From Gongronella butleri (taxonomy: Eukaryota > Mucoromycota > Mucoromycetes > Mucorales > Cunninghamellaceae), in contig JAIWZP010000014.1 of NCBI GenBank assembly GCA_025201375.1, positions 186,001 to 250,000 on the forward strand: 64,000 nucleotides of DNA, given 5' to 3'. The notes below the pieces were generated by a model. The model ran no database searches. It saw only the letters and a program-made list of their open reading frames with translations, and was not told the origin of the DNA. Each line of letters opens with the position of its first letter. The stretch's first letter is position 1. Positions 16,716 through 22,620 of the stretch are shown here, piece by piece. The translations under genes and the position numbers were made by a program.

Positions 16716-17252
16716 CGCGGTAAAATCAGCGTACGTTGAATTTTCCGGGATCAAATACCCCCGACCCCAGCTACACCCAGGTTTTGGCCAATCACGATGA
16801 AGCTGCAAATGGCGTTTTGCCGTTTTATATGTTTTCAAGGTCGTAGAAACTCATGGCGGTGTTTAAATTACATGTCTATTTGCTGGGTTTTGAGTACTTA
16901 GAGATTTGGCTCAAATGCTGCGGTTTGCTCTAATGGAAGTACCTCAAAACCTGCTTAAATCGCCATTTTGTCTCACGAGTTCGATGAAAATTTAATTTAG
17001 AATCGAATAAAGTTCTCACACGGTGTCCGTTAACTTAGTAAAATTTCGAGATAATTGCAATTTACGACATTTTGGCCGATTTTGATTTTTGGCGGTAAAT
17101 GTGCGATTTTTTTCACGTTTTTACTAAGAGAGCATGGCTCGAAAGTAACACCATTCGATTCCAAATCAAATTTTACATCCAGGGGCATTGCGTTGTAGCC
17201 TCTAAGTGCACTTCCTAGGCGTCTAGCAAGAGATTAAAACGTCTTTACCAGC

Positions 17253-17476
17253 CAAGGAGGTCGATTATTACCAGATATACATGGCAATTATAATAAAACT
17301 GATGTAATTTAATTACCCATTTTTGTATTATAATATACTTTGCCCAGGGTGTACGCTAAGGATAGACCCGTGTCTTTGCTTCGATGCACCACCGGGAATG
17401 TCTAATTTTTGATATTTTCTTGGTCATCATTTGGACATTTAATCAAAAGATGAACTAAAAGACTTGACCCACCACC
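17253..17476 (+). repeat. Left 224-bp direct terminal repeat
   Basis: By eye this is identical base for base to 20744-20967. It begins CAAGGAGGTCGATTATTACC and ends GACTTGACCCACCACC. The interior has AT-rich near-palindromes such as GTAATTTAATTAC and GTATTATAATATAC. Confidence 0.95.
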
Positions 17477-17530
17477 TACAGTAAATAAATTTTAAAAACA
17501 GTACGATATGACGCCGATATAATATATTGT

Positions 17531-19198
17531 TTAGATGACAATCCTGCATGTGACGTCTCTGTAAGTGACGTTATCGACAAAGAAACTAAACACCACACCT
17601 TCCCCAATTGTTGGTTCAATAACGTCTTGCATTTTATTCCCGCAGCGCACCATCAAACCATCCGCTAGCACCAAATGAAGGCACATTTTGCCCCTGAAAC
17701 TGGCATATCCATACTTTATTACGTTGTATGAGACATTGGCTAGAAGGCACTTGCGGTCAGATGTATATTGAGATACTTGAGGACTGTTAATCACCTGCAA
17801 AGCAGATGGCATGGCTTCTCGGATTGACGACAAGTTGAATGCGTCGTCGTCTAATCTTTGCACAAGACTGGTCACAGTTCGATCGACCGTATTTTCTAAG
17901 CGATTGAGAGGCCATTCGATATGTATGTTCTTATAGATATCAAGTCCAACATCTGCAAACATGATATCTTTTATTTGAAGCCGACCACGAGAAGGAAAGA
18001 GTGAATTTGACAAACCTGGTGTCAACGTCATGGCTGTGCAACCATCAGCTCTCATATAACGCTTATGATTAATAATTTCATATGCTGAGCTGTTTTCAAT
18101 CTGCTTGATAAAAAAACAGTGAATCACTCTATCATTAAAGCTAAAGTTAGTTAAGAAGCACTTAAGATCGTCTCTCTTGATTTTATCTTTACAAATGCCT
18201 TGCTTTTTCTTTGTAAGAGAGTTCCACCAATGACAGTATGCAAACGTATTTGTGTTTTCCACATACACTGCAGCAACCTGTGTTAGTTTATCTACAATCA
18301 TATGCCATTGCTCCCGCAAAGGCACATTAAATGTTGGGCAGCCGGCTAGCTTGTCAAGTAGGTCATCCATTGCGCGCTCATATGACGTAGGACTAAAGAG
18401 CGTACTACCATAAATAGATAACTCAATACGAGTATAACCAGTGTTTAGAAAGCGTTTCAATTTTTCCATATACAACGAGTCACGATCTGCGACCAGGTGA
18501 CTGAGGCGTGATCCAAGCGGGACAAGTACTTGCGAGCTTTCCAAAGCCTGGATAAACTTATTGTAAATTTTAGTGCGTGTATTTGCGTTATTTAAAAGGG
18601 CTGATTTTCCAAGAAACGAAATGCAATTGTCACCTACGCGCCCATGATCATTTACAATATCGCCTTTGGTTGCAATTTTGTGACTCAGGACGTATTTCTC
18701 AATGATCATGCGAGTTGAAATATAGCCGCAGTCAACAGTCACATCAATGCTTCGAAGTATAATATTGTTTTTGCGCAATTCAGCAAGTACACGTCTCAAA
18801 GAATGGAAAACGCCTGAAACGCCAATGTCATGAAAAGTCGCGTTGATCCCAATATAACCCATTTTGCTAAATGTCTCCTGGATCTCCATTTCCTCCGACT
18901 CTTTGTCAAAACTATTCCAGACACCCTTTCTTATATATTTTATGTAAAATTGGTGCTTTTCATAATGACGGACAAACATGGAGCTGATGATACCCAGAAA
19001 AGATTTGATCATTTTTGAAGCATCATCTTGTTCCATATCGAATGCACACCAGAGCATGATGCTATCGACAAACATGCTAGTATGGTCCGTCCAGCCATAA
19101 AGTTGATCATAATTTTTAACATAATTTATTCCATAAACATCATTGATGTATTGAGCATGTTCGTTGAAAAAAGTGTTAACGAGAAGGGTTGAGGTCAT
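17531..19198 (-). CDS. Element protein, possibly Rep_trans-like replication initiator
   Basis: Single-exon ORF of 555 aa, intact, AT-rich codon use. I do not recognise it with certainty. In the central part, three short motifs occur in the order seen in Rep_trans-type rolling-circle initiators: RSIDVTVDCG (about residues 149-158), TRTKIYNKFIQ (about 207-217) and TRIELSIYG (about 256-264). These recall the R.DxxxD, R(I/L)Y(D/E/N)K and TRIEL signatures of that family. No HUH motif is visible. The C-terminal 290 residues match nothing I know. It is divergent from the DDE gene and confined by the terminal repeats, so it probably acts in the element's own replication or mobility. The similarity is inference from short motifs and may be coincidence. 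Confidence 0.65.
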   Translation of the reverse strand: MTSTLLVNTFFNEHAQYINDVYGINYVKNYDQLYGWTDHTSMFVDSIMLWCAFDMEQDDASKMIKSFLGIISSMFVRHYEKHQFYIKYIRKGVWNSFDKESEEMEIQETFSKMGYIGINATFHDIGVSGVFHSLRRVLAELRKNNIILRSIDVTVDCGYISTRMIIEKYVLSHKIATKGDIVNDHGRVGDNCISFLGKSALLNNANTRTKIYNKFIQALESSQVLVPLGSRLSHLVADRDSLYMEKLKRFLNTGYTRIELSIYGSTLFSPTSYERAMDDLLDKLAGCPTFNVPLREQWHMIVDKLTQVAAVYVENTNTFAYCHWWNSLTKKKQGICKDKIKRDDLKCFLTNFSFNDRVIHCFFIKQIENSSAYEIINHKRYMRADGCTAMTLTPGLSNSLFPSRGRLQIKDIMFADVGLDIYKNIHIEWPLNRLENTVDRTVTSLVQRLDDDAFNLSSIREAMPSALQVINSPQVSQYTSDRKCLLANVSYNVIKYGYASFRGKMCLHLVLADGLMVRCGNKMQDVIEPTIGEGVVFSFFVDNVTYRDVTCRIVI

Positions 19199-19310
19199 TA
19201 TGGGCTTTCTGCCGGAGTGCGGAGTTTCATAATAAATAGCTCTTCACATAGTGACGTGTGTCACATGACCTTTTTTATTTGAATACATACTTATAGGAGC
19301 AAAGGCAAAA
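19199..19310. promoter_or_regulatory. 112-bp bidirectional promoter region of the element
   Basis: This is the only non-coding sequence between the two divergent starts, so it must hold both promoters. It contains a palindromic segment GTGACGTGTGTCAC near 19252 and TA-rich stretches on both sides. Confidence 0.5.
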
Positions 19311-20735
19311 ATGAACGAAGATCTAAGACAATTATTTCAGTATTTAGTTAGAAATTATTGGACATTTTTTCATGATGACTGGCCTGTTGTTGAAAGAGAG
19401 AAGCATCATCGATCAGAAATTAAGAGCATCGTTGGTATAGAGATTGTAAAAAACTATGTGTTTGAGCACTTAGGTTATATACCCGTATTTTTCTTTTTGT
19501 CTGTTTTATTTAGCAATAAAGACTATCCTGGACCATATCGTGGAGTGGAGAAAGGCCTGTTGATTTTGTATCATCTATTGACCGGTGCATCCATGAGTCA
19601 AATGGGGCAATTCATCCCAAAAAGCAGCTTCAACGCCATTTACCGGGTGTTTTATGCAAAGCAATTAGACTTTTTAGATAAGAAATTAGATGAATGCCTA
19701 GCTAAGATGTTTTCAAATGTAAAAATAAGGGTGATGTGTGCAAGAGAGATGAATCCTAACGAGTTTAGGCACGTTACCATGATGATTGATGGTCATGACT
19801 CACGAGCAACATACATAAATGCAACGTCAAGAGCTGATTATTATTCATACAAATTGAAAAAGTCTGGCTTTCGCACCCAGGTAGGCATGGATACCAATAG
19901 CATGATCTTGTTTGTTTCAAAAGCAGCACCATGTGGTACAAATAACGATGGATCGATGCTGGTGTCAATGGATTTATCTGATAAAATAAGTCGATTTGAT
20001 GCTGTTTGCGTGGATGGAGGCTATACTCTATTTATTGATCGTATATTATGTATGAACTCCCATCTTCAGCTTGAGAGTTTTGTGACTCCTGTTAGGAGAT
20101 CAAGAGGCGTAAATCTTAGTGCAGAAGAGACAGCATATAACCAGCTGCTTGGTGGGTTTAGATCGTCTATAGAATCTCGTTTTGGAGAGCTTGGCCATCT
20201 TTTTCATCGATTTAACGGTAAATCTGTGATCCGCGTGTCTGAAGATGCTGTATTTACGGTACAATTCAAGTTGGCATGTGTTTTAAGCAACATGAAAAAG
20301 TTTGTAGCCATGGGACCGCTTCAACATACAGATCATCATACATTTTGGATGCATAAAGACTTTGATTATTATGGTGGTACTGCTTCTACTAGTTCTGTTT
20401 ATGATGTCGTCGATATTTTGAGTATTTCCGATAGGCGTGCACATAAAGAGAAAATAGAGATGATACAACAACAGCTTTTTAATCTTACTATTGAAGAGGT
20501 TTTTGCCCAAGAGAGTGGTGTTGTTAACACTACCGAAGAGATAATGCAAGATCCAGATCATAATAGTTACGAAGTCGAGAGGATTATTGAGCATCGTCAT
20601 ACCCCAAATGGAATTCAATATAGAGTAAAATGGATTGGATATGACAACAGACATAACAAGTGGCTATCAATGGATGAATTTAATGATGATGGGAATATGG
20701 TACAAGAATATATGCTTACCATAAGCGAGGGTTAA
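19311..20735 (+). CDS. DDE transposase (PIF/Harbinger/IS5-like) with C-terminal chromodomain
   Basis: Single-exon ORF of 474 aa. Residues about 78-115 form a helix-turn-helix-like region (GVEKGLLILYHLLTG). The DDE_Tnp_4-type core follows: first Asp in MMIDGHD (D160), then SYKLKKSGFRTQVGMD, second Asp in VCVDGGY (D235) and the Glu in SIESRFG (E288). Residues about 419-468 are a chromodomain (YEVERIIEHRH, then YRVKWIGYD and NKWLSMDEF) with aromatic-cage positions Y420, W441 and Y444 kept, as in domains that bind methylated histone H3. Chromodomains on integrases are known in Ty3-type chromoviruses and direct insertion to heterochromatin; on a Harbinger-like nuclease this is unusual. All catalytic residues are present, so it is probably active. 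Confidence 0.85.
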   Translation: MNEDLRQLFQYLVRNYWTFFHDDWPVVEREKHHRSEIKSIVGIEIVKNYVFEHLGYIPVFFFLSVLFSNKDYPGPYRGVEKGLLILYHLLTGASMSQMGQFIPKSSFNAIYRVFYAKQLDFLDKKLDECLAKMFSNVKIRVMCAREMNPNEFRHVTMMIDGHDSRATYINATSRADYYSYKLKKSGFRTQVGMDTNSMILFVSKAAPCGTNNDGSMLVSMDLSDKISRFDAVCVDGGYTLFIDRILCMNSHLQLESFVTPVRRSRGVNLSAEETAYNQLLGGFRSSIESRFGELGHLFHRFNGKSVIRVSEDAVFTVQFKLACVLSNMKKFVAMGPLQHTDHHTFWMHKDFDYYGGTASTSSVYDVVDILSISDRRAHKEKIEMIQQQLFNLTIEEVFAQESGVVNTTEEIMQDPDHNSYEVERIIEHRHTPNGIQYRVKWIGYDNRHNKWLSMDEFNDDGNMVQEYMLTISEG

Positions 20736-20743
20736 TTTTAAAA

Positions 20744-20967
20744 CAAGGAGGTCGATTATTACCAGATATACATGGCAATTATAATAAAACTGATGTAATT
20801 TAATTACCCATTTTTGTATTATAATATACTTTGCCCAGGGTGTACGCTAAGGATAGACCCGTGTCTTTGCTTCGATGCACCACCGGGAATGTCTAATTTT
20901 TGATATTTTCTTGGTCATCATTTGGACATTTAATCAAAAGATGAACTAAAAGACTTGACCCACCACC
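20744..20967 (+). repeat. Right 224-bp direct terminal repeat
   Basis: Identical by eye to 17253-17476, starting 8 bp after the DDE gene's stop codon. Immediately outside lies CAAGTATTTGATCCC, whose reverse complement recurs left of the element at 16736-16758. Confidence 0.95.
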
Positions 20968-21614
20968 CAAGTATTTGATCCCGGAAAATTCAACATAGGC
21001 GTAAAATCATGCTACGATCAACGCGAAATTTTCACACATGGTAGGTTCGCGCTCTTTTTTCAGATAAACACTGAAAACCGGAGATCAATCAGGCAAGACA
21101 ATGTCGATTTCATTAAATTCAGCATTTTCATCAATCTGAACGCCAAAAGCAAGCGTTGGATCATTCATGTCCAACTAATGCCGTTTGATCATTCTCGCGT
21201 GTTTGTGTTTAAAAATCATTAAAAACCTTAAGCTATCCAGCTGAATTGTCGAAAATTTTGAAAATGTAAGCAATTTTTCAGCGATTTTCACAAATTCAAT
21301 ATTAAAGACCACAAATCGCGTTTGAATCACGTCTTCAAACCTTTGCAGTAGACTGTTTTGGGGCGCCTTTATTAATAAGATGTTCAAAACCTGAGGTCGA
21401 CTGGGCCGTTGTGCGGATAAACCCAAAATATCAAAACTTTCACAGTTTGGTACTGTCTTGGTCAAATTTTTCTTCGATCGCATTAAAACTTGCATTGTTC
21501 GAATCAGACAGGCTCGGACGCCTTTCCAGAAAATGCTTGTTTGCCCGATGCGCGACGTTTGTACGCTTGTGAAAGTCGTTCAAACAATGCAAATTTTTTA
21601 ACCTTGCTGTTCTC

Positions 21615-22620
21615 GAAAACGAAGAGCAAAACTCATCATGGCGCTTTTAACGCGTCGTGAGCACTTGTTGCGTCTCTATTGAGTAAAATTAGTTTCATCA
21701 ATGGATGTCGAAAACTCGCAGGGAAAATTCACTTTTTCATCAAAATCTTTGATCGCAACTTTCTCGACAACGGTCTAGTCAATTTTCGATTTTTATTGAA
21801 GATTTAATAACGAACAAGGATGCAAAGCATCTAATGAGATGACTTGCGACGCGCTACCGGTAGCTTGGGTTTTGACTTTCCGCATCGGTCATTTCGCAAG
21901 CCTGCAGTCCACTCAGCGCATAAATAAAAATGTGAAAAATAAAAAAGTAAAAAAAATTAATAAATATAAAAATTCCATGCAATCCAAGATTGCAAATTTG
22001 GAAGGTGTCAAACATGAATTGCGAAAAAATGATTCGCACCAGAGTAAGTAATTTTTTCAGTCGATCGGCGTTCATGCGTCACTCTTCGGTTAATTTTCTT
22101 AATTTAGGGAGTCCTACATTTTTGTGTACTAATTACGACTTCGTTGGAATTACCTGTTTAGGGCGCTTTGAGCACGCGGAGATTAAAAATTACCTACTTT
22201 GGTGCAAATCATTTTTTCGCCAATTCATGTTTGACACCTTGCAAATTTGCAATCTTGGATTGCATGGAATTTTTATATTTATTAATTTTTTTTACTTTTT
22301 TATTTTTCACATTTTTATGCGCTGAGTGGACTGCAGGCTTGCGAAATGACCGATGCGGAAAGTCAAAACTCAAGCTAGCGCGCCGCAAGTCATCCCATTA
22401 GATGCTTTGCACCCCTGTTTGTTAGTAAAACTGCACTAAAAATTGGGGGTCAAGTAGACCGTTGTCGAGCAAATTGCGATCAAAGATTTTGATGGAAAAA
22501 TGAATTTTCTCTGCGAGTTTTGGCCATTCATCTGTGAAACTGGTCTTATTTGATAAAGACATAACATGTGCTTTCGACACGTTAAAAGCACCGTGGGTTG
22601 TTGTTCCAGTCGTAGAGAAA
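21615..22620. repeat. Large inverted duplication
   Basis: Arms at about 21615-22045 and 22190-22620 are reverse complements with moderate divergence, separated by about 145 bp. Landmarks include CCATGCAATCCAAGATTG against CAATCTTGGATTGCATGG and CTGCAGTCCACTCAGCGC against GCGCTGAGTGGACTGCAG. A single related arm occurs at about 47225-47780. No ORF with a recognisable domain lies inside. Confidence 0.8.

Follow-up and report, generated by a model that had tools for sequence, protein, structure and literature searches.

Element architecture and insertion site

The window analysed here is a 64,000-nt stretch of the genome of the fungus Gongronella butleri (assembly GCA_025201375.1, contig JAIWZP010000014.1, positions 186,001 to 250,000). 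Between positions 17253 and 20970 it holds a mobile element, flanked by its target site duplications, in which two genes are enclosed by long terminal direct repeats. The stretches 17253–17476 and 20744–20967 are identical at 224 of 224 nt and start 3,491 nt apart. An earlier note on this DNA had described them as two perfect 224-bp direct repeats; identity and spacing held, but the leading CAA of each stretch was excluded as target duplication, leaving a repeat proper of 221 nt (17256–17476 and 20747–20967, both on the plus strand; GGAGGTCG...CCACC). Comparison of the flanks assigned the target site duplication to the CAA at 17253–17255 and to that directly after the right repeat at 20968–20970; the interior ends in CAA as well. 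As the same note had read them, the two genes are intact and divergent: the minus strand encodes a 555-aa protein with a predicted TBP-like fold and candidate Rep_trans-like residues (17531–19198), and the plus strand a 474-aa DDE transposase with a C-terminal chromodomain (19311–20735). They lie 54 and 8 nt, respectively, from the 224-nt repeats and are separated by a 112-nt spacer (19199–19310) that presumably carries both promoters. The outer ends are of the type GG..CC (GGAGG.../...CC) and not TG..CA. Contrary to the supposed lack of inverted ends, short and imperfect inverted termini are present within each repeat, in addition to the 3-bp target duplication, both as expected of a DDE transposon. 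A search for a hairpin-type origin in the repeats gave a weak signal, and an Rfam search of the window yielded no match. The element is best explained as a composite-like DNA transposon with the layout long terminal direct repeat–interior–long terminal direct repeat (LTDR–INT–LTDR).

The left flank (16728–17255, plus strand, inverted repeat I5) makes up most of an older, miniature inverted-repeat transposable element (MITE)-like host element, the right end of which extends from 20971 to about 21000. This host element measures about 550 bp and is dispersed in many genomic copies, the best being 98–99% identical, while the listed genomic matches of at least 100 nt span 76–99% identity. All four host-element copies that were fetched showed the left flank of the window, one CAA, and the right flank of the window up to the host-element end. 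These empty sites with a single CAA demonstrate that repeat, interior and repeat were inserted exactly, as one unit, with duplication of 3 bp.

Genomic copies

We searched the 33.0-Mb assembly (110 contigs, in which the window is C17:186001-250000) with the repeat, as the earlier note had suggested; its view that direct repeats bound a mobile element was right. The window-type repeat occurred at 17 genomic places, namely five pairs about 3.5 kb apart and seven singles, so that the arrangement is not due to chance. Paired copies of the window subfamily reside on contigs C17, C50, C61, C100 (354–358 kb, C100a) and C25. Copies of both proteins led to eight more elements, each with its own direct-repeat pair, on C100 (413–420 kb, C100b), C45, C59, C29, C52, C2, C105 and C34. 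Spacing from repeat to repeat ranged from 3,491 to 3,678 nt, except for C2 (4,754) and C34 (1,176). Genes were divergent in the window subfamily, C100b, C45 and C59 and arranged head-to-tail in C29, C52, C105 and C2, so that one gene has been flipped within the same repeat frame. Around copies on C20, C78 (two), C69, C47, C18 and C54, which are partial or interrupted and whose repeats may lie farther out, no such repeat pair was present in the DNA examined. The C18 copy (C18:525714-527054; L052) has a complete transposase frame with no partner gene within the locus and may represent a related element type without a Rep gene.

Exact 3-bp duplications flanked 17 of 20 insertions, that is, 11 of 13 elements (CAA, TTA, AAA, AAA, ATA, TAT, TAG, TGT, AAA, TCT and TTA) and six of seven solo repeats (CTG, ATA, ATA, CAG, AAA and AAA). 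The value for the elements reflects visual reading of the junctions; a rigid end rule scores 10 of 13. Away from the junctions, 3-mers agreed in 16 of 728 trials. The two mismatching elements were C50, with flanks ATT/AAT, and C105, with an unclear right end; the seventh solo repeat (C100, 27 kb) lacked a flank match, apparently because its left end is longer by three bases. A or T occupied the middle position in 15/17 duplications, and 2/17 conformed to TWA. The outer inverted ends agreed at 8–12 of 15 nt in 11 of the 13 elements, the outliers being C17 (five, the rule having moved its end by one base) and C105 (three). The 17 sites with the repeat of the window subfamily included no tandem multimers of the form (LTDR-INT)n-LTDR. 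One of its solo repeats (L069:5323-5549, flanks AAA/AAA) sits 30 nt past the right-hand repeat of an element of another subfamily, the one on C29. Elsewhere in the window, positions 21637–22595 form a large imperfect palindrome, apparently of another repeat family, with arms of 237 nt at 78%, 106 nt at 96% and 67 nt at 97%.

Paired renewal of the terminal repeats

Within each of the 13 elements the paired repeats were 94–100% identical, with zero or one substitution in 12 of them. Across the six subfamilies, by contrast, repeats shared 35.9–57.9% identity, compared with 38.9–49.5% for shuffled controls. The interiors of C17 and C100b, the one pair compared, were 75.5% identical, and the proteins of the other subfamilies could still be aligned with those of the window. 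Since repeats of different subfamilies are near background while interiors remain similar, the repeats change faster than the interior, yet do so pairwise. The terminal repeats are thus renewed in pairs. The family is young, and within the window subfamily the copies have had too little time to diverge for renewal to be tested strongly. C100a and C25 carry a common variant in both of their repeats. The C50 element (C50:233632-237346; L013, L001) combines the two repeat variants, one at each end, with the mismatched flanks mentioned above, and for these reasons it is probably an ectopic recombinant of two insertions. A further pair of direct repeats, each at least 174 nt long and about 6.5 kb apart, brackets it.

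The transposase and its partner protein

Pfam analysis of the 474-aa protein returned DDE_Tnp_4 (E 1e-9, 38.6 bits, cut-off 24.8) and Chromo (E 1.2e-9), in line with the earlier assignment as a Harbinger-like DDE nuclease with a chromodomain. Residues D160 and D235 of the catalytic triad were invariant among 26 aligned sequences and E288 was conserved in at least 90%. Judged by its domain, this protein is presumably the agent of insertion, acting on the outermost repeat ends. Besides the fungi named below for the 555-aa protein, its relatives include proteins of Cunninghamella, Lichtheimia, Apophysomyces, Dissophora and others (among 120 of 166 matches listed). Neither protein matched a reverse transcriptase, gag or retroviral integrase family in Pfam, and the two long open reading frames fill the interior, in agreement with the earlier statement that gag-pol is lacking.

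The 555-aa protein was less easily placed. Pfam assigned no family to it, nor any family to more than two of 35 family sequences (best E 0.011). A profile search of PDB sequences gave zero matches, and a comparison with the Rep_trans profile (PF02486, hhalign) detected no similarity. The predicted model, in contrast, displayed a TBP-like catalytic fold, and TBP-like folds were its top Foldseek match. Candidate Rep_trans residues are D45, D152/D156, K210-Y212-K214-Q217 and R257-E259. According to the motif definitions given in PMC4797284 and PMC5714925, D45 would be the Asp of motif N′, Y212-K214-Q217 a motif III of the YxKxxE type (with Q instead of E, as in RepSTK1), and R257-E259 motif IV (RxE). 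In motif I (RxD), D152 and D156 are invariant and the Arg two positions before D is absent; motif II (T/SxY/ExG) is matched only partially, around C192-I-S194. Tyrosine, lysine and acidic residues of the Rep_trans type recurred in the same order in 34 of the 35 family sequences. The motif pattern had been loosened after its gap proved too long for bacterial Rep_trans proteins; the 12 bacterial yardsticks all stem from one inovirus query, the only one checked against PF02486, and none is of the pT181 type. A C-terminal extra region of about 250 residues contains a near-invariant FAYCHWWNS motif (residues 319–327), outside the Rep_trans-like domain. Fold and catalytic residues suggest that the 555-aa protein is a Rep_trans-like tyrosine nuclease, resembling the enzymes that start rolling-circle replication in bacterial plasmids. 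It probably works like Rep_trans enzymes as a distant relative, and we do not claim membership. The previous proposal of Rep_trans-like motifs is supported by fold and residues and not by sequence profiles.

Named relatives of the 555-aa protein come from Rhizomucor pusillus, Linnemannia elongata, Rhizopus microsporus and Linderina pennispora, and thus include Mucoromycota (Rhizomucor) and Kickxellomycota (Linderina). For two diverged relatives, P0036 and P0040, the longest contig measures 54,482 nt in each case and is perhaps one and the same. Prokaryote genome contigs yielded 66 pattern stretches for the 555-aa family and no relative; a tblastn search of plasmids and phages with the protein found none either. 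Pattern scans of viral contigs with both proteins returned 128 and 174 stretches, again without a relative, so the likeness to a single-stranded DNA virus suggested before was not substantiated.

Proposed cycle and alternative explanations

We propose the following cycle. Recombination between the repeats, as supposed in the earlier note, or action of the Rep-like protein, would produce a 3,491-bp circle that contains the interior and a single repeat. The Rep-like protein would nick a site in the repeat of this circle, and rolling-circle synthesis would then yield multimers, in which the transposase might cut two neighbouring units at the outer ends of their repeats. The product would be LTDR–INT–LTDR with both repeats copied from one template. 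Solo repeats could be left by recombination after insertion or by transposition of a lone repeat; as each terminal repeat carries both ends, a lone repeat could act as a non-autonomous transposon. Such a cycle would give both genes a task and account for repeats that are direct, alike and equipped with both ends. The circular form would fit the relatives of the 555-aa protein, in whose table of 41 rows, each represented by its longest contig (one lacks a length), eight of 18 contigs of 3.0–10 kb measured 3,571–3,700 nt, close to the repeat spacings; five of these lengths appeared in the tables of both proteins. This evidence is circumstantial, and assembly collapse of the repeats would equally give contigs of such lengths. 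As a whole explanation, an LTDR–INT–LTDR transposon with a Rep_trans-like nuclease and a circle/rolling-circle cycle is the reading we consider probable, with moderate confidence.

A different account would let the DDE enzyme move the element by cut-and-paste alone. Gene conversion or unequal crossover would keep the two repeats similar, and the 555-aa protein would serve as a DNA-binding cofactor or recombination-provoking nuclease rather than a replication initiator. This account has a model in KolobokP, where such a layout goes together with a homing endonuclease; induced unequal crossover was proposed for it (PMC9587614). The top Foldseek match also speaks for it. TBP binds DNA without nicking it. 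TBP, however, is not known to have catalytic residues of the Rep_trans type, whose order is kept nearly throughout the 555-aa family, and the repeat pairs are alike even where repeats of different subfamilies align no better than background. We regard this account as rather unlikely. That an ordinary PIF/Harbinger element acquired a MITE, the 221-nt repeat, at both ends by chance would agree with the MITE-like solo repeats, their inverted ends and 3-bp duplications. Six subfamilies with repeat pairs unlike one another, and an outer duplication that does not recur at the inner junctions, make such a coincidence very improbable. Least probable of all, to a degree that we hardly consider it, is a true long terminal repeat retroelement or virus remnant: terminal direct and solo repeats would be expected of it, whereas the Pfam domains, the end sequences and the viral contig scans described above all oppose it.

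Comparison with known systems

KolobokP has been set apart from all other DNA transposons by its long terminal direct repeats (PMC9587614). It shares with the window element an interior between such repeats, which have short inverted ends of their own, as well as solo repeats with short target duplications and a DDE transposase accompanied by a second protein. The layout is thus of a known kind, with a precedent in KolobokP. Membership is contradicted by transposase and second protein: KolobokP belongs to the Kolobok superfamily of animal hosts, and encodes a His-Me homing endonuclease, and its repeats measure about 450 or 660 nt; its multimers are common, unlike in the window subfamily. As the same layout occurs with another transposase type in another kingdom, it may have arisen independently.

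Members of PHIS (PIF/Harbinger, Pangu, Nuwa) resemble the element in the DDE_Tnp_4-type transposase, terminal inverted repeats, 3-bp duplications, a length of about 3.7 kb with two open reading frames, and ends beginning with G. In most autonomous members the second open reading frame encodes a Myb/SANT protein, and the PIF/Harbinger target duplication is TWA (PMC4482050). The element differs in its long direct terminal repeats, the chromodomain on its transposase, the scarcity of TWA and the partner, for which Pfam found no Myb/SANT and the model is TBP/Rep_trans-like. It does not fit PIF/Harbinger in the narrow sense, owing to the partner and for the most part to the duplications; the transposase may fairly be filed as PHIS-type. 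Our literature search, outside whose coverage most subscription papers, preprints and Repbase Reports lay, retrieved no PHIS element with terminal direct repeats and no eukaryotic Rep_trans.

Helitrons and IS91 are likewise transposons using a rolling-circle nuclease, yet with HUH enzymes, no DDE enzyme and no target duplication (see PMC5714925 for rolling-circle nucleases). The Rep_trans initiators RepSTK1 and RepDE and the archaeal Rep-Arvir share with the predicted model of the 555-aa protein the TBP-like catalytic fold, the tyrosine on a β-strand, the lysine two residues on and the order of the acidic metal ligands (PMC4797284, PMC5714925, PMC13107129). The fungal host, the location inside a DDE transposon, the lack of profile similarity, the missing motif I Arg and the C-terminal region with FAYCHWWNS set it apart. 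Rep_trans enzymes had appeared restricted to bacteria until Rep-Arvir extended the fold to archaea (PMC13107129, April 2026); with a fungal member that sits in a DDE transposon, the class would reach the eukaryotes as well. Tentatively, and at slightly below an even chance, we propose a eukaryotic element of two genes that would switch between integrated transposon and replicating plasmid-like circle, a Rep_trans-class initiator making rolling-circle multimers from the one-repeat circle and the DDE enzyme cutting LTDR–INT–LTDR units from them. If true, the retroviral cycle would have a counterpart made of DNA alone, in which each round renews the terminal direct repeats without reverse transcription. 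The Rep-like partner suggests replication of a circle as the mechanism, and how DNA transposons keep paired direct repeats becomes a testable question in a young family.
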